A program made the translations under genes and the position numbers. From Spirochaetae bacterium HGW-Spirochaetae-5 (GTDB lineage: Bacteria > Spirochaetota > UBA4802 > UBA5550): 33,411 nucleotides of DNA. Below, piece after piece: positions 360 through 25,651 of this stretch. Below the pieces are notes generated by a model. That model was not told the origin of the DNA and ran no database searches. It was given only the letters and a program-made list of their open reading frames with translations. Each line of letters opens with the position of its first letter. The first letter of the stretch is position 1. Location of the stretch: assembly GCA_002839285.1 (NCBI GenBank), contig PGXT01000056.1, forward strand, positions 1-33,411, in the 5' to 3' direction.

Positions 360-621
360 TTAATGTTTATGCCTGTGATGCATATCGGGCCAGTGAGGAT
401 GAGCATGTTCATCCTCTTCATGTGTATGAATATGTTCATGATAGGATACTTTTTCTTCGTGAGGATGATTATGATGCAGATCATCATGTCTGTGAAAATG
501 AATATGCTCGGTTTCATGATGGTGATGATGATGTTCATGTTTTTCAAACATAAAAAATATTATTGATACAGTAAATAATGCAAAAGAGATAATCTGTAGA
601 GAGCTTATGCTTTCAGACAGA
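360..621 (-). pseudogene. Displaced C-terminal end of the DMT transporter: last membrane helix plus histidine-rich tail
   Basis: This is the continuation of the transporter gene at 605-1387, in a frame offset by one base. Reading from the T-run at 621-624 in this frame gives a hydrophobic helix (LQIISFALFTVSIIFFMFEK) that matches the missing last membrane span. It then enters a tail of 63 residues (from the Met at 551) of which 26 are histidine, ending in HRHKH and a TAA at 360-362. The tail is also rich in Glu and Asp (HxH, HHNH, DDLHH patterns), typical of a flexible cytoplasmic segment that binds Zn, Ni or Co. Some EamA/DMT transporters are known to carry such tails. The segment has no ribosome site of its own and is unlikely to be a separate gene. 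Confidence 0.7.
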
Positions 622-1387
622 AAACTCCGAAAAATGGAGCACTGGAAAAAATTATCTGGCTCCTGATCGCACCGAGTTTCTGAGCTGAAATTATATACAG
701 AACAATACTCAATCCGTAGGAAACACTACCTAAAATTACTGCATATATAATTAACTCGGTTCCCGGAGTACTGCCCGAAAAATAGTAACCCGCTGCAGTA
801 TTAACAATACCGGCAGATAGTCCCTTAATAAATGTACTCTGCACCGCCGATATCCCGTCAATGAGAGCTGTAAAATGATTATCAAAACCCCAGCATATAC
901 ATGCCGAGCCCACCAGTACCGCGGAGAGCACACCAGAATGCCCCTCATTTACCGTAAGTATAAGACCTGAAATAAGAGCAAAGACCACGCCAGCCCACCC
1001 CTTTACCCCGAGAAAATCTTTAAAAAAAAGAAATCCCAGAAGAGCGGTCGCAGCCAGTTCAAGATTAAGCCACAGAGAAACAGATGAAGCAGATGCGTAC
1101 TTCAGTCCGGTTAATATCAATACAGGACCAAGAACTCCCCCCAGAAGAACTGAACCTGATAATCTGATCCTGTTATTCCGGTTCATATTGAGCAGATGAG
1201 GCAGTTCTTTCCGGATCAGAATTACCGGCAGTAATCCCATTGACGCGCCGAGATATAAAAGACCTGCCAGAAAAACAGGGTTAATATCATTCAGCAGAAT
1301 TTTATTAAACGGGGTATTAATGCCGAACAGAGCTGCTGAGGACAGAGCCACAATCATGGCGGAATATTTTATTATTATCGTTTTCAT
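605..1387 (-). CDS. EamA/DMT-family membrane transporter, truncated by frameshift
   Basis: This encodes an inner-membrane drug/metabolite transporter of the EamA family. As written it has 260 residues from the ATG at 1387, which has GGA about 10 bases upstream. An in-frame ATG at 1444 lacks a ribosome site. The two EamA halves are visible: the first begins ALSSAALFGINTPFNKILL and closes with LNLELAATALLGFLFFKD, the second begins SACICWGFDNHFTALIDG. The reading ends abruptly at FFGVFCLKA, inside the second half and before the last helix. Adding one T to the run at 621-624 restores APFFGVFLSES and joins the helix and histidine-rich tail down to 360, giving about 342 residues. The substrate is unknown; the tail suggests a metal-linked role. 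The cause may be a sequencing error, a real mutation or a phase-variable tract. Confidence 0.8.
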   Translation of the reverse strand: MKTIIIKYSAMIVALSSAALFGINTPFNKILLNDINPVFLAGLLYLGASMGLLPVILIRKELPHLLNMNRNNRIRLSGSVLLGGVLGPVLILTGLKYASASSVSLWLNLELAATALLGFLFFKDFLGVKGWAGVVFALISGLILTVNEGHSGVLSAVLVGSACICWGFDNHFTALIDGISAVQSTFIKGLSAGIVNTAAGYYFSGSTPGTELIIYAVILGSVSYGLSIVLYIISAQKLGAIRSQIIFSSAPFFGVFCLKA

Positions 1388-2469: not shown

Positions 2470-2886
2470 TCAATAACGCACATCGAGATCATCGGCATCT
2501 AGATGAATTGTATGACACTTCATCTGCAGTAAAGATTTTTTTTCGTTGAAATACCATGAAGATTCAATTTTGTTCACTGCGGCAACAGTCAGGAGCCACT
2601 CCTCCTCATGCGGATGAATCTGTTTATCAGAGGAGGCAAGAACAAGTCCGTCTTTAATAAATTTTTCAGCAAGCTCATTTGATGAAAAAACCGGAGGTTC
2701 CTCAGATATATATTTATTCCCGATAATTTCATTTATGGCATCTTCAATAAAGCCCTTTTCAAAACCCAGAGCCTTCCCTATCCGGGTTATAATGACATGT
2801 TCAGGTTCTGAAATTTTATTATCTTTACGGACAAGGAGAAGCATACCTTTAAAATAATTACTGCCGTCTATAACTGGAATTTTCAT
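2470..2886 (-). CDS. TerB-like helical protein
   Basis: This is a soluble protein of 138 residues. The start chosen is the ATG at 2886 because GAGGGG lies four bases before it; an in-frame ATG at 2943 adds 19 residues and has no such site. The sequence reads as a bundle of helices: YFKGMLLLVRKDNKISEPE, HVIITRIGKALGFEKGFIE and EEEWLLTVAAVNKIE. The spacing of acidic residues after the first helix resembles TerB/tellurite-resistance folds (for example DNKISEPE). It lies downstream of a PilZ protein on the same strand, so the pair may act together, but no function is known. The family call is by eye only. Confidence 0.6.
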   Translation of the reverse strand: MKIPVIDGSNYFKGMLLLVRKDNKISEPEHVIITRIGKALGFEKGFIEDAINEIIGNKYISEEPPVFSSNELAEKFIKDGLVLASSDKQIHPHEEEWLLTVAAVNKIESSWYFNEKKSLLQMKCHTIHLDADDLDVRY

Positions 2887-3060
2887 ATTACCCCTCAATG
2901 TTTTTACACTTTCACAAAACTGCTGTAAATTCAGAACATACACACCGGTATTATACTTTTAATTATTACCCGATGAAAAATATTTCTAAAAGTTATTCTG
3001 AATTTATAATCTGTCAAAATCGAAACATGGAAGTTACAGTATTAATTTATTCACCCCTTA

Positions 3061-3411
3061 TTATCTGGATTTTTCATATTCCTTTACTGCATTAGAATTG
3101 CCCGCGTCATTAAAATCAATAATATTCTTCAAGTGAATGAACGAGTCAAATTCAATTTCTTTAAAGATTACCGCAACTCCCTTTGACTCTTTCCTTGAAA
3201 CTACACCATTAATTTTAAGCGTCAACTCAGATGTGGAACCCGAAAGGTAAATCGAAACCTCCACGGCAGTATCAACCGGTATGTTTTCTGAAGTATTCAT
3301 AAACATACCGCTGGTGCTCAGATTTTCAACATCCCCGTTAACAGTTACTCCATCATACTCAAGCGAAGCATTTACATGAAATACAACTCTTGATTTATTC
3401 CTTTCATTCAT
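3061..3411 (-). CDS. PilZ domain protein (probable c-di-GMP receptor)
   Basis: This 116-residue protein consists almost entirely of one PilZ beta-barrel. Near the N-terminus is a basic NERNKSRV stretch, a plausible match to the RxxxR c-di-GMP-binding arm. The second motif, D/N-x-S-x-x-G, appears as DVENLSTSGMFM at about residues 27-38. The rest (VSIYLSG, LTLKINGVVSRKES, GVAVIFKEI) gives the remaining barrel strands. PilZ proteins of this size usually bind cyclic di-GMP and pass the signal to a partner. The gene precedes the TerB-like gene. GAGGAG lies about 11 bases ahead of the ATG. The first motif has a single clear arginine pair, so ligand binding is likely but not certain. Confidence 0.85.
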   Translation of the reverse strand: MNERNKSRVVFHVNASLEYDGVTVNGDVENLSTSGMFMNTSENIPVDTAVEVSIYLSGSTSELTLKINGVVSRKESKGVAVIFKEIEFDSFIHLKNIIDFNDAGNSNAVKEYEKSR

Positions 3412-3451
3412 AAAATTTCATCTCCTCATGCATAAACACTTATATATCAAT

Positions 3452-3480
3452 ACTGTAATAAATGTATCAGAATTTATCAA
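3452..3480 (-). promoter_or_regulatory. Possible sigma70 promoter of the PilZ gene
   Basis: On the minus strand TTGATA (3475-3480) is followed after 17 bases by TACAGT (3452-3457), about 40 bases upstream of the PilZ start. The -10 match is only moderate. Confidence 0.35.
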
Positions 3481-3674
3481 GCAGTGGTGTCTTTTTTTCA
3501 TTTAATCTTTTTGCTGGTTACCTGGAGATTATTGTAAGTTTAGTATCATGGTGAAAGATTGTTTTTTATAAGGTTTTTTATATGGCTTTTAGATTATACT
3601 TTCAAGTAAGAAATATAACCGTTTATCCCCTGGAAATTTCAATGCTTTAAACAATAGCAGGAAGTAATCAAAAT

Positions 3675-3706
3675 TATAATATAAAAAGACCCGTTTAAAG
3701 GTCTTT
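3675..3706 (-). terminator. Rho-independent terminator after the ankyrin lipoprotein gene
   Basis: On the minus strand AAAGACC and GGTCTTT form a perfect 7 bp stem (3685-3691 with 3700-3706) around an 8-base loop. A T-rich stretch follows. It begins about 18 bases after the stop of the ankyrin gene. Confidence 0.7.
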
Positions 3707-3724
3707 CAATATTATTTATAAAGA

Positions 3725-4219
3725 TTATTTCGCTCCGGCTTTTTTCAGAATCTCAATTAACTCAGGCCATGTTGTAGAAGTTGGAGAATCTTTCGCCCAT
3801 CCTTCAACTCTCTGAAGTGGTGTTCCATATCCGCCGTCAAAATTAACATCAGCCTTCTTTTCAATAAGAAGCTTAACTACATCAGTACGTCCCCCAAGGA
3901 GAGCACCGCTTAATGCAGTACTTTTCCCGGAAGTTTTCTGATTAACATCAACACCCTTATCGAGAAGAAATTTAACGACTTCGATTTTCCCGCTGTTTGC
4001 TGCAGTTACAAGAGCTGTTGTGTCATAATTAGCCTTACTCTCGCCATTTATGTCTGCGCCCTCATCATACAGCTTTTTCACTTTTTCAAGATCACCGTCA
4101 TATGCTGCTTTTACAAACTGATCGGTTAACGCAGGATTTATTGTCCGTTTGCACCCGTTAAATCCGATAACTCCGGCGATAAGAATAAAAATTACACCAT
4201 AAACTCTGAAATTCCTCAT
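3725..4219 (-). CDS. Ankyrin-repeat lipoprotein
   Basis: This is a 164-residue exported lipoprotein. Residues 1-22 form a basic start plus hydrophobic core, and the lipobox GFNGC places the lipidated cysteine at residue 23. After a short linker come about four ankyrin repeats: LTDQFVKAAYDGDLEKVKKL, TALVTAANSGKIEVVKFLLD with GVDVNQ, TALSGALLGGRTDVVKLLIE with KADVNF, and a degenerate last one ending ELIEILKKAGAK. Such proteins act as binding scaffolds in the periplasm or at the membrane; the partner is unknown. AAAGGAGC lies 3-4 bases before the ATG, and a hairpin terminator follows the stop. It looks like a single-gene unit. Confidence 0.85.
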   Translation of the reverse strand: MRNFRVYGVIFILIAGVIGFNGCKRTINPALTDQFVKAAYDGDLEKVKKLYDEGADINGESKANYDTTALVTAANSGKIEVVKFLLDKGVDVNQKTSGKSTALSGALLGGRTDVVKLLIEKKADVNFDGGYGTPLQRVEGWAKDSPTSTTWPELIEILKKAGAK

Positions 4220-4290
4220 GTGATGCTCCTTTGTATTATTTACTTATGGTGAAGTATACAAAGAATATCTGTTAATTACAAAAAAAATAC

Positions 4291-4806
4291 TTAAAAATCA
4301 AAATGTTTTCTATCCCCCTTCTTCCAGAACTCAAATCTCTTTGCTGCCAGTTCAGATGCATCTCTGCTCCGCTGTTCTTTATTATGTATGTCCGGGAAAT
4401 TCTGCAGAAACTGATCAAGATTATCAGCCACCGCATAAACACGCGGTCCCTCAAAATCGAAAATCAGAACAGGCATCATCTCTTCAGAACTGTCCCAGAC
4501 AAGAAATCCCTTCGATTCAGGAACTTCGGGGTGATCATAAATTGCCAATGGGATATAAGTATTAAACTCAGCTGTCCAGATCTCCTTAATATTATTAATC
4601 CCCTGGGATTTCCCCAGTTCAATTACATCTGTAAGGAGTTCATCAACAAAATGAAGATGAAAGAGTCCGCTGATAAATCCTGTAAAGAGCGCCTGATTCT
4701 CTTCAAACTGTTCATACTCCTTCTCTTTAATAAACTGTTCATATCTTGCGGGGAGAGTAACTTTATAACTCTTTGTTATTTTTGATAAAAATATATTTTC
4801 GTCCAT
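4291..4806 (-). CDS. SUKH (SMI1/KNR4)-like protein
   Basis: This is a cytoplasmic protein of 171 residues from the ATG at 4806. I prefer this to the in-frame ATG at 4815 because AAAAGG sits directly against the latter but 8-9 bases before the former. The order of elements fits the SUKH fold: an N-terminal helix (LPARYEQFIKEKEYEQF), a central strand/helix (SQGINNIKEIW), the hallmark YIPLAIYDHPE and GFLVWDSSEE, then PVLIFDFEG and the closing helix ADNLDQFLQNF. SUKH proteins often serve as immunity proteins to contact-dependent toxins. No toxin gene is visible next to it, so that role is only a possibility. Family assignment is by pattern. Confidence 0.65.
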   Translation of the reverse strand: MDENIFLSKITKSYKVTLPARYEQFIKEKEYEQFEENQALFTGFISGLFHLHFVDELLTDVIELGKSQGINNIKEIWTAEFNTYIPLAIYDHPEVPESKGFLVWDSSEEMMPVLIFDFEGPRVYAVADNLDQFLQNFPDIHNKEQRSRDASELAAKRFEFWKKGDRKHFDF

Positions 4807-4855
4807 TTTATACATCCTTTTGTTTTATTAATCAGTCTTTTCATATTATCCTATT

Positions 4856-4996
4856 TATAGCATTTTACGATTGAAATAGTACTAACTTCAGGCTTTGACT
4901 CCGCTCAGCCAGCGTTAAATTACGCTCCCTGCTTGTATTGAGCTTGTCGAAATGAGCGGAGTCGAAGGGCTAATTGTACTGATTCATTCGTTAACC
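4856..4996. repeat. Copy A of a ~141 bp imperfect palindromic repeat
   Basis: This aligns without gaps to the block at 6302-6442 and differs at only about one position in ten. It contains a long inner inverted repeat: GACTCCGCTCA (4898-4908) pairs with TGAGCGGAGTC (about 4953-4963). It also contains a small nested stem (AGCG...CGCT). Its outer ends are related to each other as an imperfect inverted repeat. It does not code for protein. It may be a MITE-like or REP-like element and lies just downstream of chrA. Confidence 0.75.
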
Positions 4997-5067
4997 TCTT
5001 TTATTTATTCAAAAGCAATAAGCTCTCCGGATTATAGAAAAGAATAAATGACGACCTTAACCGACCG

Positions 5068-6273
5068 TCAGAATTTAAAAAATTCCAGAATCATTCCCCC
5101 TGCCGCTCCGGCTATTACAATAATCCATGGAGGTAACTTAATAAAAACCAGCATCATAAACAACAGAACTGTCAGTGCAAGATCATACTCCGATTTAACA
5201 GCCGAAATCCATACAGGATTATACAGAGCAGCTAAGAGTATTCCGATAACAGCAGCATTAACACCTGTAAGTGCCCCCTGTATTTTAGGACTGTTACGAA
5301 GCACATTCCAGAAAGGGAGTGTTCCGATAATTAGAAGATAAGCCGGAAGAAAGATCGCAAAAAGAGCGAGCAAGGCCCCCTTCAACCCGCCGATCATTGC
5401 TCCCAGATATGCGGCAAATGTAAAGAGAGGACCCGGTACACCCTGCGCAGCTCCATACCCTGCAAGAAAAAGATCTTTGTCAACCCATCCCGTAGGAACA
5501 ACCTCATGTTCAAGAAGAGGAAGTACAACATGACCCCCTCCGAAAACAAGCGAACCGGAACGGTAAAAACTATCTGCAACTGCAATCATATGATTATTTG
5601 TTAAATTACGAACTATCGGCAGTGCGGCGAGCAGAATAAAAAATGCCGCGAGACATAGAAGAGCAAATCTCCGGCTGACCTGAACCCTGATCTTTGTAAC
5701 TTCGGGAACCTCATGTTTCCTGTAAAATATCAAGCCGGTAATACCTGCCGCGGCGATTATAATAATCTGATTAAACGCAGACTGCCAAAACAGCAATATT
5801 ATAAAAACTCCAACTGCTATTACTGCCTTAAGTTTATCTGTAATTATTTTCTGCCACATGGTAAGAATAGCCTGAGCAACTATCGCAACCGCAACAATCT
5901 TAAGTCCATGAAGCCAGCCTGAATCTATAATATCAAATCCCTGAAGAACAAAGGCGAATAGTATCATCATTACAGCAGAAGGAAGAGTAAAACCGAACCA
6001 GGCTGCAATCCCTCCGGGTACACCTGCACGGATAGTACCTATTCCAATACCTATCTGACTGCTTGCCGGTCCTGGAAGAAACTGGCATAGAGCAACAAGA
6101 TCAAGATAACTCCGTTCATCAATCCATTTCCTTTTATCAACATACTCATTGTGGTAATATCCCAGATGCGCAATGGGCCCGCCGAAAGATGTTAAACCGA
6201 GTTTCAAAGAGACCAGAAGTACTTCCAATACAGCTTTAAATCCGGTTTTTGCTGTTATGATTTTTTCTGTCAT
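5068..6273 (-). CDS. chrA: Chromate transporter, long-chain CHR family
   Basis: This is an inner-membrane protein of 401 residues with two homologous CHR domains, the standard long ChrA form, about 10-12 spans. Domain 1 (about 15-190) has KLGLTSFGGPIAHLGYYHNE and the signature CQFLPGPASSQIGIGIG. Domain 2 (about 205-395) has the parallel GSLVFGGGHVVLPLLEHEVV and AAQGVPGPLFTFAAYLGAMIGG. Family members export chromate by proton-coupled antiport, although many homologues in anaerobes have untested substrates. The ATG has TGAGGTG upstream. Copies of one repeat flank the gene on both sides in the same orientation, so it may be a transferred cassette. No chrB-like regulator is present. Confidence 0.9.
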   Translation of the reverse strand: MTEKIITAKTGFKAVLEVLLVSLKLGLTSFGGPIAHLGYYHNEYVDKRKWIDERSYLDLVALCQFLPGPASSQIGIGIGTIRAGVPGGIAAWFGFTLPSAVMMILFAFVLQGFDIIDSGWLHGLKIVAVAIVAQAILTMWQKIITDKLKAVIAVGVFIILLFWQSAFNQIIIIAAAGITGLIFYRKHEVPEVTKIRVQVSRRFALLCLAAFFILLAALPIVRNLTNNHMIAVADSFYRSGSLVFGGGHVVLPLLEHEVVPTGWVDKDLFLAGYGAAQGVPGPLFTFAAYLGAMIGGLKGALLALFAIFLPAYLLIIGTLPFWNVLRNSPKIQGALTGVNAAVIGILLAALYNPVWISAVKSEYDLALTVLLFMMLVFIKLPPWIIVIAGAAGGMILEFFKF

Positions 6274-8169: not shown

Positions 8170-8486
8170 TTATTCCTCCTGTTTTTTGAGTTTGTGATGT
8201 GTTTGAAAGCCCCCCACCGGGGGGTTTGGGGGGCTGACCGTCGACCCGCTCCACCTGACAATCTCCGGATCAACTCCGCTCCTTCGGGCGATATCCGCAA
8301 GCTCTTCCATAAATGATTCCTCAATCAGCGGTGTTTTTTCAAACTCCCACACTTTATCAAGACGGATGTACTTATCTGCGCAGAGGTTGTTGAATGCACA
8401 AAGATCCCAACGTTTCACAACACCATCCGGAAGAGACGAAATAAATTTCCCGATCCCTTCAATATTCTCTTTCCGTGCAGCTCTTT
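8170..8486 (-). pseudogene. C-terminal fragment of the glycyl-radical activating enzyme, out of frame with its N-terminal part
   Basis: This frame reads AARKENIEGIGKFISSLPDG and then VVKRWDLCAFNNLCADKYIR, LDKVWEFEKTPLIEE and VDPEIVRWSG. That is the normal end of a GRE activase, including the final helices and the VRWSG strand end. It lies in a different frame from the N-terminal part (8415-9116), and the expected W-I-R-T-P-x-x-P-G-A-T stretch just before A-R-K-E-N is absent. After VRWSG the frame runs through a GC-rich hairpin, giving an unusual tail (SPPNPPVGGFQTHHKLKKQEE, split here as SPPNPPVGG plus the rest) before TAA at 8170-8172. A GTG at 8418 could be read as a start, but no ribosome site supports a separate gene. 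Confidence 0.75.
8208..8235 (-). repeat. GC-rich hairpin in the activase C-terminus
   Basis: AGCCCCCC (8208-8215) and GGGGGGCT (8228-8235) form an 8 bp perfect stem in an otherwise AT-rich region, with a GC-rich 12-base loop. On the minus strand TTTC follows. It may be an inserted intergenic-type repeat or a former terminator; the coding frame now runs through it. Confidence 0.55.
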
Positions 8487-9116
8487 TATATACTCACAAC
8501 ATCGCGTCAGATTATCCAGAATTCTTTCGTTACCGCTTCCGGTAAATTCTTTATGCAGTTTTGAATCTATCTCTTTCAGATCATACAAAACAAGATCCGC
8601 ATGGGAGAATATTTCATCAAAGACGGAGTCATTAAACAGACCGCATGTGTCCACTGCAGTATGGATCCCTTCAGCTTTCAGTTTTTTTAAAAGTCTGCCA
8701 ACAAATTTTGTCTGAAGCGTCCCCTCTCCGCCGGAAACAGTAATCCCCCCTGAAGATTTTTCAAAATATGCCCTGTCTTTTATAAGCTCTTCAAAAAGTT
8801 TATCGACCCCCCATTTTTTACCCAGCAGTTCAAGTGCAGTTGACGGACAATGCTCTGAACATATTCCGCATCCGGCGCAGAGATTTCTGTCTATCTTCAC
8901 TCCGCTTCCGCTGAGAGATAATGCTTTATGCGGACAAACTTTAACGCATGTACCGCAACCAATACACCGAACCCCAAGCCAGTGAATCTCGGGTAATGGT
9001 GAAATACTTTCGGGGTTATGACACCATCTGCATGACAGTGGACAACCCTTCATAAAGACCGTTGTACGTATACCGGGTCCATCCTCAGTGGACATCCTCT
9101 GTATCTCAAGGACCAC
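8415..9116 (-). pseudogene. Glycyl-radical enzyme activating enzyme (radical SAM), N-terminal part, disrupted
   Basis: This is a PflA-like activase that would generate the glycyl radical on the neighbouring enzyme using S-adenosylmethionine. The start is the GTG at 9116, three bases after the GRE stop. The SAM cluster motif is C25-x3-C29-x2-C32 (GCPLSCRWCHNP). An inserted ferredoxin-like pair of clusters follows, CIGCGTCVKVCP and CAGCGICSEHCP, found in activases of non-PFL glycyl radical enzymes. SGGITVSGGEGTLQ is the SAM-binding GGE region, and the DTCG and LYDLKEID motifs follow. After CCEYIKE the sequence loses about 20 expected residues and the frame, and stops at 8415-8417 with a short foreign tail. 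It is therefore probably non-functional as read, unless the gap is an assembly error. Confidence 0.8.
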
Positions 9117-15885: not shown

Positions 15886-16392
15886 TTATGCTTCAGTTCT
15901 GATATAATACCACAGGGTACTCTCCCCCTTGTGGTAATACTCAGGGAAGTTTCCGACAAGTGTAAATCCCATTTTAACAAGAAGATTTCTCATAGCTATA
16001 TATTCAGGTTTATCTGATGTATCAACAATCAGAAATCTCCCTTCGTTTGATTTTACAAATTCTACCGCAATAGCAATAAGACTCTTCCCTATACCATGAT
16101 GCCTGAAACTCTCATCAACTGCAATAAAAGATATACAATAACCTGAAGTTTTATGCTCTGTCTCTTTAACTCCAACAGCAGCAATAATGTCCCCCTTCTT
16201 ATTACTGGAATACCAGTACTTAATATCCCTGCTCCGGAGACTCATGAATGGTTCCCGATATATCTGCTCCCTTTCTCCAGGGGTTAAAACTGCATCGAAG
16301 GCCCTTCCGGAGAGAAAAAAAGTAATCAGCTTCTCTACGTCCTCCGTTGTTTTAACTTCTGTATAAACAAATTTAGTTTCTATCTGGTTCAT
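15886..16392 (-). CDS. GNAT-family N-acetyltransferase
   Basis: This is a cytoplasmic protein of 168 residues with the GCN5-related acetyltransferase fold. The acetyl-CoA pyrophosphate-binding loop is RHHGIGKSLI, following strand ISFIAVDESF. The family's later LLVKMGFTLVGNFPEYY stretch (helix plus beta7) is also present. The substrate is unknown. Its ATG overlaps the stop of the large MFS fusion gene (ATGA), and GGGGAG lies just upstream inside that gene, so the two are translationally coupled. That linkage suggests a joint role, for example modifying the transported molecule, but this is inference. Confidence 0.85.
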   Translation of the reverse strand: MNQIETKFVYTEVKTTEDVEKLITFFLSGRAFDAVLTPGEREQIYREPFMSLRSRDIKYWYSSNKKGDIIAAVGVKETEHKTSGYCISFIAVDESFRHHGIGKSLIAIAVEFVKSNEGRFLIVDTSDKPEYIAMRNLLVKMGFTLVGNFPEYYHKGESTLWYYIRTEA

Positions 16393-19364
16393 TTCTTCTC
16401 CCCTGCCAAAGATCCATTTTTGGTACCCAAAACAAAAATAAATAATAACGCGGTCATACCGGTTATCATTATAATCATCCCCTGATTATAGCCCGAAACA
16501 AAAAGATAACCCATCAGAACAGGACCGATCATCTGCCCGATATTACCGATAAAATTAAGGTACCCGACACTCTTATTATATCCAATATCCGCTGAAGCTT
16601 TCTGATCTATCAGATAATCGTTACTCATGGGGAGTCCGAAACTATCCCCTATGCCTACAAACAATACTATAATTACCGCTGTTATAACTGACGGTTTAAT
16701 TCCAAAAAGAATAAGGCCCATTAATGTAACAGCCATATATAATACCATGGACCATTTACCTCTCAGAAAATCTCTTTTGGAGAGATACCGTACAATCGCC
16801 GGGCCAAGATATATAATAACCAGACTGTTCATCATAAACACCCGGCTTATATCACCTGCCGAGATATTCTGTCCCTCGGCAAAAACAGGAAACATATAAG
16901 TCAGAAACATACTGCATATTGAAACCGGAATAAATGCAGTGAAGAAAAAAAGAAAAATATTCCGGTTAGTGAAGAACTTCATAATGTCTATAAAGGAAAC
17001 TCTCTTCTCCTCTACAAGGTTGTGGGTTCTTCTGTTTTTCATTAAGTACAATGCATAGAGTAATGCTGCAACTGAAACGAATACAGATATCATATAGACA
17101 CTCGAAAATCCGATGTAGTCAGCGCTGAGTCCGCCTATAGCAACACCGCAGCAGTATCCGGCATTCAAGCCGGAATTCTGTGAGGCAAGGCCGCTGTTCC
17201 TTACAGTTACGTCCGGTGAAATCATCGGATAACACTGAAGTGTAACCAGAGCAAAACCATATGCCGTACCGACAAATGTTCTCGCTATTGTAAAAGCATA
17301 TGGATTATTGATATAATATGCAATGAGTGAACCAATCCCCATACAGACTGCTCCAATTAGAAACGGGAATTTCCATCCCCTTTTATCTGTCCAGTTCCCT
17401 GCAAAAACTGCGAACACAGCCGTTGCCAGCATCTCCGCTGAGATGGGAATTGCCATTGCAATTGTCTCGGGGAGATTAAAGAGCGTAATCCCGGAAGTGG
17501 CAAGTATCTCTTTCATCATCAAAGGAGTATATGAAACAGGGAGCGCGTATGAAAAGGCTATGATAAATGCCAGCATCCTGACAATTTCAACTGAATATTT
17601 ACCAAAAGGATTCTCTTTGCTTTCATTCTTATTTATAAAAACATTCCGGAGTATAGTAACTTCAATCATAATAAGAACAAGAATTATTAAAACTGTAACA
17701 ATCTCCTTATTTATATTTGTTATAAATTCCTGAATCTTCACCTCAAATGAATTCAGATCCTTACCCACTTCCAGAAATCCGGCAATTTCACCCTTTGAGT
17801 TATATATAGGTCCAAGAGAATAGATCCATGATCCATATATATCATTCTCTTCGACACTTTTGATTTCACCTTTATCTATTACATCAGCAAAGGGGCTATC
17901 TTTATAATTATCCTTATAAGGGAAGTTTACACCTGAACTGTCATCGAAGAACATCAGCACATATATTTTATTGTTTTTTAAAGTATAAATTCCGCCGTAA
18001 TAATCGGCATTCCATTCATCAGCATTATCATTAAACATACTGTGAAGCTGAGACCTTAACTTGATATAATCCTTACTCATAAAATCTTCACGGTCGTTGA
18101 CTTTACTTATAAGGTCCCCTTCAATATATCTGTTTGAAAGCTGATTTATATGCTTAAGATTACTGAATACATTCTCTTTATAAATACCGGTAAGAGTGGA
18201 GACTGCAATCTTAAGAACAATAATTGTAGTTATAAGAACAGCCGTAATTATCATTGCCGACTGAACAGTAACTTCCGATAATTTCTTTTTGAAAATATAA
18301 ATATATATCCATGCTGCTAAAAAAACTATACTCAGAAAAAATAGAATACCGCTTAAAAATATTAACAATCTTGTCGCAATTATAAATATCGAATAGCGCT
18401 TCCCTTCAGATTCAATTTTAATATTCCCGGCAAAATCACCCTCTATAATTGAAGCATCAGTTACAGCTGAAAAATTATCGCCGTTAATTTTAAAATTTCT
18501 GATAATATCCGAAGAGTCTTCTGATAAAGAATATGTATATCCTCCGTAAGCATTCTTATCCATTTTTACAATTTTTCTAAATCCCACGTCAGAGAAAAAA
18601 ACAGATTTGCCGTTTACAGCAATCTGCCATGGAATTGATAATTCATTTTTAACAACAGGGCGCGAGCTTGAATATATCTCTTTAAATCTAAGACCATTTT
18701 CACTGATGAAAATCTGACCTTTTTTTGTTATGTAGGCAATGGTAGAGAGGTTTGGTATAAAATCGCAATCCACTATGTTAAGTTTAGGATTATCCATAAC
18801 TATTGTTTTAAGGATAGAGTTTGTGCCGTCTGAAATATTAATCGAACCTAACTGAATTCTAACGGAGTCATTATAAAAATAGAAAATCCTGTCATTGCTG
18901 AAGGTTATCCTTCTATAATTCCCTTCCATGTCCGGCATTTCATCTTCTTTATACAAATGTGAAAATACATTTTTAACAAAATCTCCGTTTGAATTAAACA
19001 TCTTGATATTTTCTTTTACAATTTTCAATCCCGAGTCATCTGTCGCATAATCAAGCAGATAAAAATTTCCTGCTGTATCATTTACAATATCCCATGCTCT
19101 GAAAAAGCTTTCCGGCTTATCCGAATTACCCTCCAGAATATACTCAACTGTATTATCTTTCCTGATTTTAGCAATTTTCTTCAAAGAATTAAAGATTATA
19201 AATCTATTTCCGTTCAAATCAGTGGAAATCCGGGCGGCGCTTTCAAGTTCCAGACGAACATTAAGAGGATTTGAAAAAACGATCTCCTGGTTTTTATAAC
19301 CTGTAAAACCGAAAATCAGAAGCGATAATAAAATAAGAAGCAGATATTTTTTAGATTTCAGCAT
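16389..19364 (-). CDS. Sensor-transporter fusion: propeller-like domain, Cache-like sensor and MFS transporter
   Basis: This is a ~991-residue inner-membrane protein. The start is the ATG at 19364 (GGAA about 9 bases upstream); a TTG at 19406 would add 14 residues. After an N-terminal hydrophobic segment (about 1-23) comes a ~300-residue, strand-rich extracytoplasmic region with repeated GNRFIIF, GNFYLLDY, GKSVFFSDVG units, resembling NHL/beta-propeller blades. A membrane helix (about 327-358) and another (370-391) follow, then a Cache-like domain (about 392-550, ending SLGPIYNSKGEIAGFLEVGK). A helix (554-576) leads to a 12-span MFS domain (about 594-985) with the loop motif GNWTDKRGWKFP. MFS proteins are normally about 400 residues. 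The substrate is unknown; the sensor part could gate transport. It is coupled to a GNAT gene. Confidence 0.8.
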   Translation of the reverse strand: MLKSKKYLLLILLSLLIFGFTGYKNQEIVFSNPLNVRLELESAARISTDLNGNRFIIFNSLKKIAKIRKDNTVEYILEGNSDKPESFFRAWDIVNDTAGNFYLLDYATDDSGLKIVKENIKMFNSNGDFVKNVFSHLYKEDEMPDMEGNYRRITFSNDRIFYFYNDSVRIQLGSINISDGTNSILKTIVMDNPKLNIVDCDFIPNLSTIAYITKKGQIFISENGLRFKEIYSSSRPVVKNELSIPWQIAVNGKSVFFSDVGFRKIVKMDKNAYGGYTYSLSEDSSDIIRNFKINGDNFSAVTDASIIEGDFAGNIKIESEGKRYSIFIIATRLLIFLSGILFFLSIVFLAAWIYIYIFKKKLSEVTVQSAMIITAVLITTIIVLKIAVSTLTGIYKENVFSNLKHINQLSNRYIEGDLISKVNDREDFMSKDYIKLRSQLHSMFNDNADEWNADYYGGIYTLKNNKIYVLMFFDDSSGVNFPYKDNYKDSPFADVIDKGEIKSVEENDIYGSWIYSLGPIYNSKGEIAGFLEVGKDLNSFEVKIQEFITNINKEIVTVLIILVLIMIEVTILRNVFINKNESKENPFGKYSVEIVRMLAFIIAFSYALPVSYTPLMMKEILATSGITLFNLPETIAMAIPISAEMLATAVFAVFAGNWTDKRGWKFPFLIGAVCMGIGSLIAYYINNPYAFTIARTFVGTAYGFALVTLQCYPMISPDVTVRNSGLASQNSGLNAGYCCGVAIGGLSADYIGFSSVYMISVFVSVAALLYALYLMKNRRTHNLVEEKRVSFIDIMKFFTNRNIFLFFFTAFIPVSICSMFLTYMFPVFAEGQNISAGDISRVFMMNSLVIIYLGPAIVRYLSKRDFLRGKWSMVLYMAVTLMGLILFGIKPSVITAVIIVLFVGIGDSFGLPMSNDYLIDQKASADIGYNKSVGYLNFIGNIGQMIGPVLMGYLFVSGYNQGMIIMITGMTALLFIFVLGTKNGSLAGEKK

Positions 19365-19691
19365 TTTAACATTCCGGGATATTTTATTTTTAAACTGTTT
19401 ACTCAATAATAAGCTTACTGTACAAATTAATATTTAAAAAAAATGATCAGTTCTAAAAACTCTATACTAATATAAATGTTTTTTCAATTAAAAAATAGTA
19501 ATTATATAAAAATGTCAGTATTTATTACTTTGCACTTTGTAAGCAGATTAAACACCACCCTTTCATCTGGTAGCAAATTATTTTCGGGGGTGCGTATGCT
19601 CAGCATACGCCTGGAGAGGGGGATTATTCTTCTTGATTATAAACCCGCTAAAAAAGTAGTATTAACAAAAATTTATACTGAAGGTTTACCG
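19365..19691. other. Divergent intergenic region between the MFS fusion and tatD
   Basis: This 327-base stretch holds copy 2 of the 39 bp repeat (19572-19610). On the minus strand, TTGAAA (19482-19487) with TATAGA (19461-19466) 15 bases on could be the MFS promoter, although the spacing is short. The frame of tatD stays open through much of it, but without a ribosome site or conserved residues. I see no gene. Confidence 0.55.
19572..19610. repeat. 39 bp repeat with perfect palindrome, copy 2
   Basis: This is 37/39 identical to 13972-14010. It ends in GCGTATGCT-C-AGCATACGC (19592-19610), a perfect 9 bp inverted repeat around one base. It lies about 80 bases ahead of the tatD start. Confidence 0.7.
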
Positions 19692-22659: not shown

Positions 22660-23514
22660 TTATTTTAACCAGCTGTCGACTTTATCTTTATTGTCCTTAA
22701 CCCACTGCTGCGCTGTTTTATTCAGATCTGCGCCTTTCTCCTGATTCGCAACCATTACTTTAGAAATATCTTCATTCTCCCAGTAAAACTTATCAAGGAA
22801 ATTGTAAACCTCAGGCATATCATCTTTAAGGCCTTTTCTCACAACCGTATTTATTGTCTCTTCAGCACCGAAAGCGCGTTTAGGATCTTCAAGAATTTTA
22901 AGGTCCCATCTGCCGAATTTCCAGTGAGGAGCCCAGCCTGTAACAACAATCCACTCCTTATTATCAATTGCCTCTTTTAGAGCCGCAGCCATTGTTGCAC
23001 CGCTCCCTTCAATCAGTTTTGCGTTTAATTTTTCACTTTTTATAAACTTTTCAGTCTGGATCATCATGCCGGCACCGGGATCAATACCGATAATCTGATT
23101 TTTAAACTTATCCATATTATCCTTAAGCTCTAAGAGAGAATTAATTGTTACATAAGATGGTACAACAAGACCAAGCTTTGCACCTTTGTAATTCGGGCCG
23201 AGATCTTCAACATTCTTTTTCACCTTCGCAAGATACTCTGCATGAGTAACCGGAAGCCATGCTGTAGTCATCGCATCTGCATCACCAGAACCGATAGACT
23301 GCCACATCGCTGCAGCTGCCACAGGAATAACCTCTACGGTATAACCAAGTCTGTCTTCAATTACAGCTTTAGCAACATGCGCACTTGCTGTAGCACAGTC
23401 CCACTCTACGTAAACAAGCTTAACGGTGCCTTTTGACTCTTTCTTTTTGCAGCCTGCGCTGACCGCTGCAATTAATGAAACTGAAACAAATAATAAAATT
23501 ATTTTTCTTAACAT
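22660..23514 (-). CDS. opuAC: Glycine betaine/proline-type ABC transporter substrate-binding lipoprotein
   Basis: This is a periplasmic, lipid-anchored binding protein of 284 residues. I take the ATG at 23514 because GGAG lies six bases upstream; the ATG at 23526 has no such site. The signal peptide ends in the lipobox VSAGC with C22. Tryptophans that would form the aromatic cage for quaternary ammonium groups are W38 (VEWDCA) and those in AAMWQSIG, TAWLPVTH and TGWAPHWKF. This favours glycine betaine or a similar compatible solute. It is the third gene of the ATPase-permease-binding protein operon, and the separate subunits follow the OpuA/ProU layout. A gap of about 120 bases separates it from the permease. 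Confidence 0.9.
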   Translation of the reverse strand: MLRKIILLFVSVSLIAAVSAGCKKKESKGTVKLVYVEWDCATASAHVAKAVIEDRLGYTVEVIPVAAAAMWQSIGSGDADAMTTAWLPVTHAEYLAKVKKNVEDLGPNYKGAKLGLVVPSYVTINSLLELKDNMDKFKNQIIGIDPGAGMMIQTEKFIKSEKLNAKLIEGSGATMAAALKEAIDNKEWIVVTGWAPHWKFGRWDLKILEDPKRAFGAEETINTVVRKGLKDDMPEVYNFLDKFYWENEDISKVMVANQEKGADLNKTAQQWVKDNKDKVDSWLK

Positions 23515-23633
23515 ATCTTTCTCCATATATTTTTTAAACAGTTAACTATATCAACTGCCCTGTTCTAAACATATTTATCTCTCAGGTCTTAAGTTTATAA
23601 AACCGGAGGAGACAAATATATCCTTTTGTGCTT

Positions 23634-24461
23634 TTAGAATTTTTTACGTATATTCTGAGTAATCCGATCAAGTATAATTGCCATAATAACAACAGCAATA
23701 CCCGCTTCAAAACCCATCCCCGGACGTAATCTCTGAATTGCTCTCCATACTTCTCCGCCAAGACCTCCCGCACCAATCATTGCTGCAATTACCACCATTG
23801 AGAGAGCAAGCATAATGGTCTGATTAACACCTGCCATTATTGTGGGCATTGCAAGTGGAAGCTGAATCTGAAACAATTTCTGTTTTCTTGTGGCTCCGAA
23901 TGAATCTGCTGCTTCAATATACTCGTTGGGTACCTGCTGTATTCCAAGACATGTAAGTCTTATTGCAGGTGGCATTGAAAAAATAACCGTTGTAAAAACA
24001 GCAGAAACAACACCAAGACCGAAAAACGGAATAGCCGGTATAAGATATACAAAAGCCGGCATTGTCTGCATAAAATCCAGCACAGGCATTATGGCCCTTC
24101 TAGCTCCCGAGTTGAGCGCCGCCAGTATCCCGATAGGAATACCTATAATCATCGATAAAAACGTCGCTATTAATACCAGCGTCAGTGTCGAAACCGATGC
24201 TGACCATAAACCAAGATTCCATATAAAAAGCAGACCAAGGAATGTAAAAACTGCAATACCCCTGGTACTGAAGTACCAGGCCAGGGCCACGAAAACAAGA
24301 ATAAGAACAATCGGCGGAATAAGCATAAGAAAATCGTTAACAGAATCAATTCCGATCTTCATAACTCTTGAAATCGCTTTGGTAACAAATGAATAATGTA
24401 ATGTTGTATAATCTATAAAGGTATCTACTGCCGCATCAAGCGGTAATTTAGGAATTATCAT
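23634..24461 (-). CDS. opuAB: Glycine betaine ABC transporter permease
   Basis: This is an inner-membrane permease of 275 residues with about six to seven spans, of the ProW/OpuAB type. The ATPase-contact (EAA) loop is EAADSFGATRKQKLFQIQLP, followed by AMPTIMAGVNQTIMLALSM and the conserved IGAGGLGGEVWRAIQRL. The N-terminal amphipathic region is short, as in OpuAB and unlike the long ProW tail. The gene overlaps the upstream ATPase gene by four bases (ATGA), so the two are translationally coupled. Confidence 0.92.
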   Translation of the reverse strand: MIIPKLPLDAAVDTFIDYTTLHYSFVTKAISRVMKIGIDSVNDFLMLIPPIVLILVFVALAWYFSTRGIAVFTFLGLLFIWNLGLWSASVSTLTLVLIATFLSMIIGIPIGILAALNSGARRAIMPVLDFMQTMPAFVYLIPAIPFFGLGVVSAVFTTVIFSMPPAIRLTCLGIQQVPNEYIEAADSFGATRKQKLFQIQLPLAMPTIMAGVNQTIMLALSMVVIAAMIGAGGLGGEVWRAIQRLRPGMGFEAGIAVVIMAIILDRITQNIRKKF

Positions 24462-25651
24462 TGTACTGCTCCTCTGTCTGCAAGCCCGGCAATCAGTGAG
24501 CCCCTTACAATTATCCCGAGAAATTTATTGTATTCATCAAGCACAACAAGAGGATATTTTGAATCTGCAATTATAGGCATAATCTCCTGAAGTGATGTAT
24601 CAGGTAAAACCCGGTATTCGCAGATCTCCTCAGTGATATTCATCAGGTCATTCTCACCTCTATCCAGAGCCTGTTTCGCATTTTCAGCCGAAACCAGACC
24701 CTTGAAAATTTTTGATTTATCAACTACAAATATACTTGAGATCCCACGCTCCTTCATTGTGTGAAGAGCTGTTTTGGGACCGTCTTTCCCGTAGGTTATG
24801 GAAATTCCCTTTACCATTACATCCTTGGCTGTAAGCACACGCGTCAGGTCAACATTCTCCACAAATTTTTCGACATACTCTGTTGCCGGTTTTGTAAGAA
24901 TAACCTCGGGGGTACCGATCTGTACAATCTCTCCATCCTTCATAAGAATAATTCTGTCTCCGATTTTCAGAGCTTCATTTAAATCATGAGTAATGAAGAT
25001 GATAGTCTTCTTAACTTTATCCTCAAGACTAAGGAGCTCCTCCTGCATCTCAGTTCTGATTAAAGGATCAAGAGCACTGAAGGCCTCATCCATGAGTAAA
25101 ATATCAGGGTTAATAGCAAGAGCTCTGGCGAGACCAACCCTCTGCTGCATACCGCCACTCAGTTGCGAAGGATAATACTCCTCCCACCCCTTAAGACCGA
25201 CGAGATCGAGCGCCTCCATACCTTTAACGACGCAAACCTCCTTTTCGACTTTCTGAATCTCAAGACCGAAATAAGCATTTTCAAGAACAGTCTTATTTGG
25301 GAACAAAGCAAACTGCTGGAACACCATACCAAACTTGTGCTGCCGGAATTTTCGAAGCTCCTCTTCAGATAGAGCAGTTACATCCACTCCGTCTATTGTG
25401 ACTTTACCTGAAGATGGTTCAAAAAGACGGTTTATGCAGCGGAGCAGAGTCGACTTTCCGCTTCCTGATAGTCCCATTATAACTAAAGTTTCACCCTCGT
25501 ACACTTCGAATGAAGCATTAACAACACCGACAGCGCAATTTGTCTTTTCAAGAATAGTATCTTTATCAGAACCGCTCTTTAACATCTTCATCGCCGGTTT
25601 TATATTTGAACCAAAAACCTTATAAATATTTTCTACTTTAATCTTTACCAT
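24458..25651 (-). CDS. opuAA: Glycine betaine ABC transporter ATPase with CBS domains
   Basis: This ATP-binding subunit has 397 residues. Walker A is GLSGSGKS (60-67), the signature is LSGGMQQR (164-171) and Walker B is DILLMDEA (183-190). The stretch KDTILEKTNCAVGVVNASFE ahead of Walker A is typical of ProV/OpuAA. Residues about 276-390 form two CBS domains (ISSIFVVDKSKIFKGLVSAE and YPLVVLDEYNKFLGIIVRGS), which in OpuA sense ionic strength or cyclic di-AMP. Import is therefore probably gated by osmotic state. AGG lies eight bases before the ATG. It is the first gene of the operon. Confidence 0.93.
   Translation of the reverse strand: MVKIKVENIYKVFGSNIKPAMKMLKSGSDKDTILEKTNCAVGVVNASFEVYEGETLVIMGLSGSGKSTLLRCINRLFEPSSGKVTIDGVDVTALSEEELRKFRQHKFGMVFQQFALFPNKTVLENAYFGLEIQKVEKEVCVVKGMEALDLVGLKGWEEYYPSQLSGGMQQRVGLARALAINPDILLMDEAFSALDPLIRTEMQEELLSLEDKVKKTIIFITHDLNEALKIGDRIILMKDGEIVQIGTPEVILTKPATEYVEKFVENVDLTRVLTAKDVMVKGISITYGKDGPKTALHTMKERGISSIFVVDKSKIFKGLVSAENAKQALDRGENDLMNITEEICEYRVLPDTSLQEIMPIIADSKYPLVVLDEYNKFLGIIVRGSLIAGLADRGAVQ

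Follow-up and report, generated by a model that had tools for sequence, protein, structure and literature searches.

A split EamA transporter gene with a His-rich tail in a draft spirochaete genome is probably an assembly artefact that lost 16 bases

Transporters of the DMT superfamily have ten membrane helices, and those bearing the EamA domain include members in which two EamA stretches are accompanied by a His-rich tail, as in two close relatives of the gene described here (L002 and L003) and in Desulfosarcina widdelii (L017). These proteins have in common the CWGFDNHFTALIDG and APFFG motifs and a tail ending in WPDxHHRH, all of which, together with the two EamA stretches, recur in a transporter encoded within a 33,411-nucleotide stretch of DNA (hereafter the window) that constitutes the whole of contig C70 in a genome of 4.71 Mb and 309 contigs. 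Unlike its EamA relatives, the copy in the window is 16 bases short and runs out of frame from helix 9 onward. A literature search covering the opening parts of abstracts yielded nothing that we recognised on an EamA family with a His-rich tail among the matches listed. The second class with which the locus can be compared is that of gene breaks in draft assemblies, which arise when contigs are joined over unfilled gaps. Variable net losses, an undecayed downstream frame, the hit in an essential gene and N-runs of similar size are features of such breaks and are found here as well, a likeness of pattern alone. In our assessment, the split of the transporter is probably an artefact of the assembly, in which 16 bases were lost in joining, rather than a real feature, and living cells probably carry an unbroken gene.

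In itself the gene is ordinary: it encodes a transporter of the EamA family (DMT superfamily) whose C-terminal tail is rich in His. The first part of the transporter matches the Pfam EamA family (PF00892) in two stretches with an E value of 1.5e-22 and 80.8 bits against a cut-off of 28.2, which places it within EamA/DMT; NCBIfam returned no match over its cut-offs for this part, and no solved structure matched the transporter in sequence at an E value of 0.01. As assembled, the locus comprises the following features.

605..1387, minus strand: N-terminal part of the EamA/DMT transporter, frame 0, 260 aa, with an early TAA at 605-607
621..626, minus strand: break point, with a placement ambiguous by a few bases, within the codons of helix 9; 16 bases short compared with relatives
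360..623, minus strand: C-terminal part of the transporter in the -1 frame, comprising the end of helix 9, helix 10 and the His-rich tail, with the stop at 360-362

The frame change reported in the first-pass annotation is present: the frame that starts at the ATG at 1387 meets the TAA at 605-607, its final residues lying beyond the break and out of frame, and the C-termini of relatives align to the -1 frame, an agreement that puts the second frame beyond chance. That annotation had also placed the stop before the last helix, which holds for the early stop and understates the damage, since the break cuts into helix 9 as well and throws helix 10 out of frame. Consistent with this, no single open frame of the assembled transporter carries the full helix set, the first one ending inside helix 9, and simple hydropathy scanning of L002 showed one helix at the position of the join and another after it. 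The second frame reads (FL)SESISSLQ...HHHHHH...WPDMHHRHKH, also given as LSESISSLQIISFALFTVSIIFFMFEKHEHHHHHH...WPDMHHRHKH, and an ATG at 551 opens the frame of the tail. The tail perhaps binds metal, a role with a metal ion being suggested by the tail alone.

Matches to the transporter were detected in eight of 98 genomes, the window's own included, and a scan of genome contigs gave 20 loci in records bearing the names Zixiibacteriota, Desulfobacterota groups, Elusimicrobia, Eisenbacteria, Truepera, Lentisphaeria, Spirochaetes and others. The nearest complete relatives are L002 and L003, which match the first part with 63% and 62% identity; each is a single open frame (358 and 364 residues) with a similar His-rich tail; in the more distant L006 (33%) the site is present and the His-rich tail is absent. 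L007 and L008 were excluded from the alignment (E near 1e-3), L010 and L030 are one gene, counted once, with N-runs elsewhere within it, and L026 has N at the site and is unreadable there; L023 and L024 are nearly identical, and L029 is truncated by the start of its contig. As a separate observation, N-runs interrupt this same transporter gene in two further assemblies: that of L030/L010 (UBA5368), where L030 shows three such runs, each about 150 bases long, in or at the gene, and that of L026, which has one of 100 bases. EamA transporters with a His-rich tail that ends in WPDxHHRH (360-551 on the minus strand of the window; relatives such as L002, L003 and L011-L025) were found in records of several phyla.

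The alignment of these relatives revealed how much is missing at the join. All 23 distinct readable relatives carry five residues, located between the APFFGV-like and L-x-E motifs (TFSVV in L002 and VFSVL in L003), that the window lacks, a tally obtained by a pattern count (19 of 25 rows) and by eye in the alignment for L012, L014, L016, L022 and L025. Five absent residues plus the frame offset imply that 15 + 1 = 16 bases are missing, and the same figure emerged from the net shortfall between the two matched pieces in 17 of the 17 relatives matching both, as well as from the DNA alignment with L002, which shows a single 16-base gap at the join. The first-pass annotation had ascribed the offset to a single missing base in a T-run (AAAA on the plus strand, TTTT on the minus strand, 621-624), and this is contradicted by all three measurements. 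Adding one T does bring the tail back into frame down to 360, as it had proposed, yet helix 9 remains five residues short. The basis for a homopolymer explanation is therefore gone, for phase variation and for a miscounted run alike, and a one-base homopolymer error is rejected. Of the three origins that had been put forward, a sequencing error, a mutation and a phase-variable homopolymer, an error in this assembly is the best supported, in the form of a lost 16-base stretch instead of a miscounted homopolymer.

The same evidence bears on the proposal that slippage in the T-run switches the last helix and the His-rich tail on and off. The break does lie at the TTTT run, and one extra T returns the tail to frame; a fifth T would nonetheless leave helix 9 without the five residues present in every readable relative, and in the DNA of five relatives the T-runs near the site vary from 3 to 7 bases with no shared place. 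Four bases also make a short tract for slippage, and contingency genes are recognised by a repeat tract that brings back the complete product when its length changes, which this 4-base tract does not do. We thus rejected phase variation, which we regard as extremely unlikely; a switch of this kind, if true, would be an unusual control of a metal-binding tail, and the evidence points away from it.

Both frames could in principle be used, either by a programmed -1 ribosomal frameshift, with a longer product, or by translation restarting from the ATG at 551, with two. The -1 frame is conserved, the ATG opens the frame of the tail, and A TTT TTC just upstream of the break is a near match to a slippery site. 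The rule for such sites is X XXY YYZ, and no exact instance occurs at the break itself. Moreover, all 23 distinct readable relatives cross the site in a single frame, the two-frame arrangement being kept in none of them, and a frameshift would leave the five missing residues unsupplied. On these grounds programmed frameshifting was rejected, and we give next to no credence to either of these translational routes. The single-frame passage in all 23 also answers a point raised in the first-pass annotation, namely that a close relative might likewise end near residue 260; none of the 23 does.

The condition of the second frame was examined by comparing nonsynonymous divergence (dN) on either side of the break, synonymous sites being saturated in this comparison. 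Against L002 the tail gave 0.30 and the body 0.28; against L003 the two values were 0.35 and 0.32. The tail is thus about as conserved as the body, which indicates that the second frame has not decayed and, hence, that the break is either very recent or absent from the cell. The first of these options corresponds to a real 16-base deletion, whereby the transporter gene would be a young pseudogene whose 260-residue product ends before helix 9 is complete and lacks both helix 10 and the tail. This is how the sequence as given reads, and a recent deletion would likewise leave the downstream frame undecayed; taken alone, one locus would look identical under a small real deletion, and the site, with its Phe codons, is rich in T, a composition that might promote slippage. 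A further elaboration, in which such a deletion became fixed and the ATG at 551 yields a free, soluble, His-rich metal-binding peptide acting as a metal buffer split from the shortened transporter, seems to us highly improbable. What sets the assembly artefact apart from a real deletion is the state of other genes in the same genome.

A survey of gene integrity was made between this genome (G000) and G001, the only same-genus genome among those searched and the one on which the survey rests. G001 supplied the open frames, taken from 120 residues upward, and about 0.69 Mb of G000 (0.67 Mb readable) served as the target, a gene being counted as matched when its best piece reached at least 50% identity. 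Seven of 69 matched genes were split in G000, against 0 of 68 in the reverse search (Fisher p = 0.013). Overlapping frames were removed in this final count; an earlier, less strict count had the same seven breaks (7 of 98, against 0 of 100 in the reverse search) and, in the two directions, 25 and 28 internal-stop matches that were taken, without being checked singly, as antisense or overlong stop-to-stop frames. The seven splits correspond to net losses of 5, 11, 47, 52, 86, 91 and 154 bases, none of them a single base. Two of the seven broken genes adjoin on one 4.7-kb contig (L176), and one of the seven (L178) has one piece at 44% identity. Within the window, a glycyl-radical enzyme activase (8415-9116, minus strand) is split as well, its second frame running on to about 8224. 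Measured against six of the nine relatives matching both pieces it has lost 52 bases, and against the remaining three 46, 58 and 64. This activase adjoins an 838-residue glycyl radical enzyme.

Across 667 kb of readable sequence, the sampled stretches of G000 also contain 19 N-runs, which measure 8-186 bases; the window itself holds no N. These runs indicate that the assembly has short padded gaps in a size range like that of the losses (5-154 bases); a check of gap sizes gave five matches close to N-runs, none of which was bridged. The N-runs look like scaffolding over short gaps of estimated length, and a gap whose size was estimated at zero or below could have been joined free of N, producing a break resembling those observed. 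At the transporter, two contig ends flanking a short gap would have been joined directly, without the bases of the gap or N padding, and the same joining apparently affected other genes of G000, including ileS. We infer that the bases were lost in joining and not through mutation.

Six universal families were searched in G000. The rpoC, rpoB, dnaE and alaS genes were each found in one open frame, unbroken, and the valS frame reaches the end of a contig and was not counted as broken. For ileS, one match exceeded the family cut-off, with weaker matches in other frames, such as the valS frame, and this one is split.

Contig C18 of G000, about 2534-5202 (L194): split ileS, with an 82-base loss

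The first frame of ileS stops after 752 residues and the remainder lies in another frame. Compared with G009 and G002, the loss appears as one clean 82-base gap, and the alignment with G001 resolves it into 88 minus 6. The search for ileS covered 14 relatives, two of which had no match at 1e-100, and in all 12 with a match the gene occupies a single open frame, 867-969 aa long. Isoleucyl-tRNA synthetase is indispensable to a living cell, and because of this need the break in ileS is most simply an assembly fault, unless the genome has a second ileS beyond the 95% that was recovered. An ileS beyond that portion would weaken the argument from an essential gene. Over rpoB, rpoC, dnaE, alaS and ileS, about 1.6 breaks would be expected at the rate of the survey and one was seen.

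Similar breaks are therefore present elsewhere in the assembly and extend to a gene that the cell can hardly lose, which is the pattern anticipated for breaks made by assembly. For a real deletion in the transporter, these same observations are adverse: similar losses affect 7 of 69 matched genes, none by a single base, and the sole ileS over the cut-off is also broken, a condition that a living cell could hardly tolerate. We accordingly hold a real deletion to be unlikely. With 7 of 69 testable genes split by small losses, split genes and short proteins in this genome need checking before any biological reading is placed on them.

The surroundings of the transporter were compared with loci around the genes of three relatives (L031-L034), with L011-L030 and with 20 small contigs of G001, and the transporter was the only part of the window to be matched above 150 bits. 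Known RNA families at gathering threshold, sought in the window and eight relative loci, were limited to two tRNAs, both in L011. Elsewhere in the window, positions 16389-19406 on the minus strand encode a protein of 1005 residues in which Pfam places a Major Facilitator domain at 612-934; the long N-terminal part ahead of it has no match in Pfam. Positions 22660-25651, also on the minus strand, encode an ABC transporter set of the glycine betaine type, in which the OpuAC binding protein was recognised by Pfam and the permease and ATPase were assigned from the appearance of their sequences.
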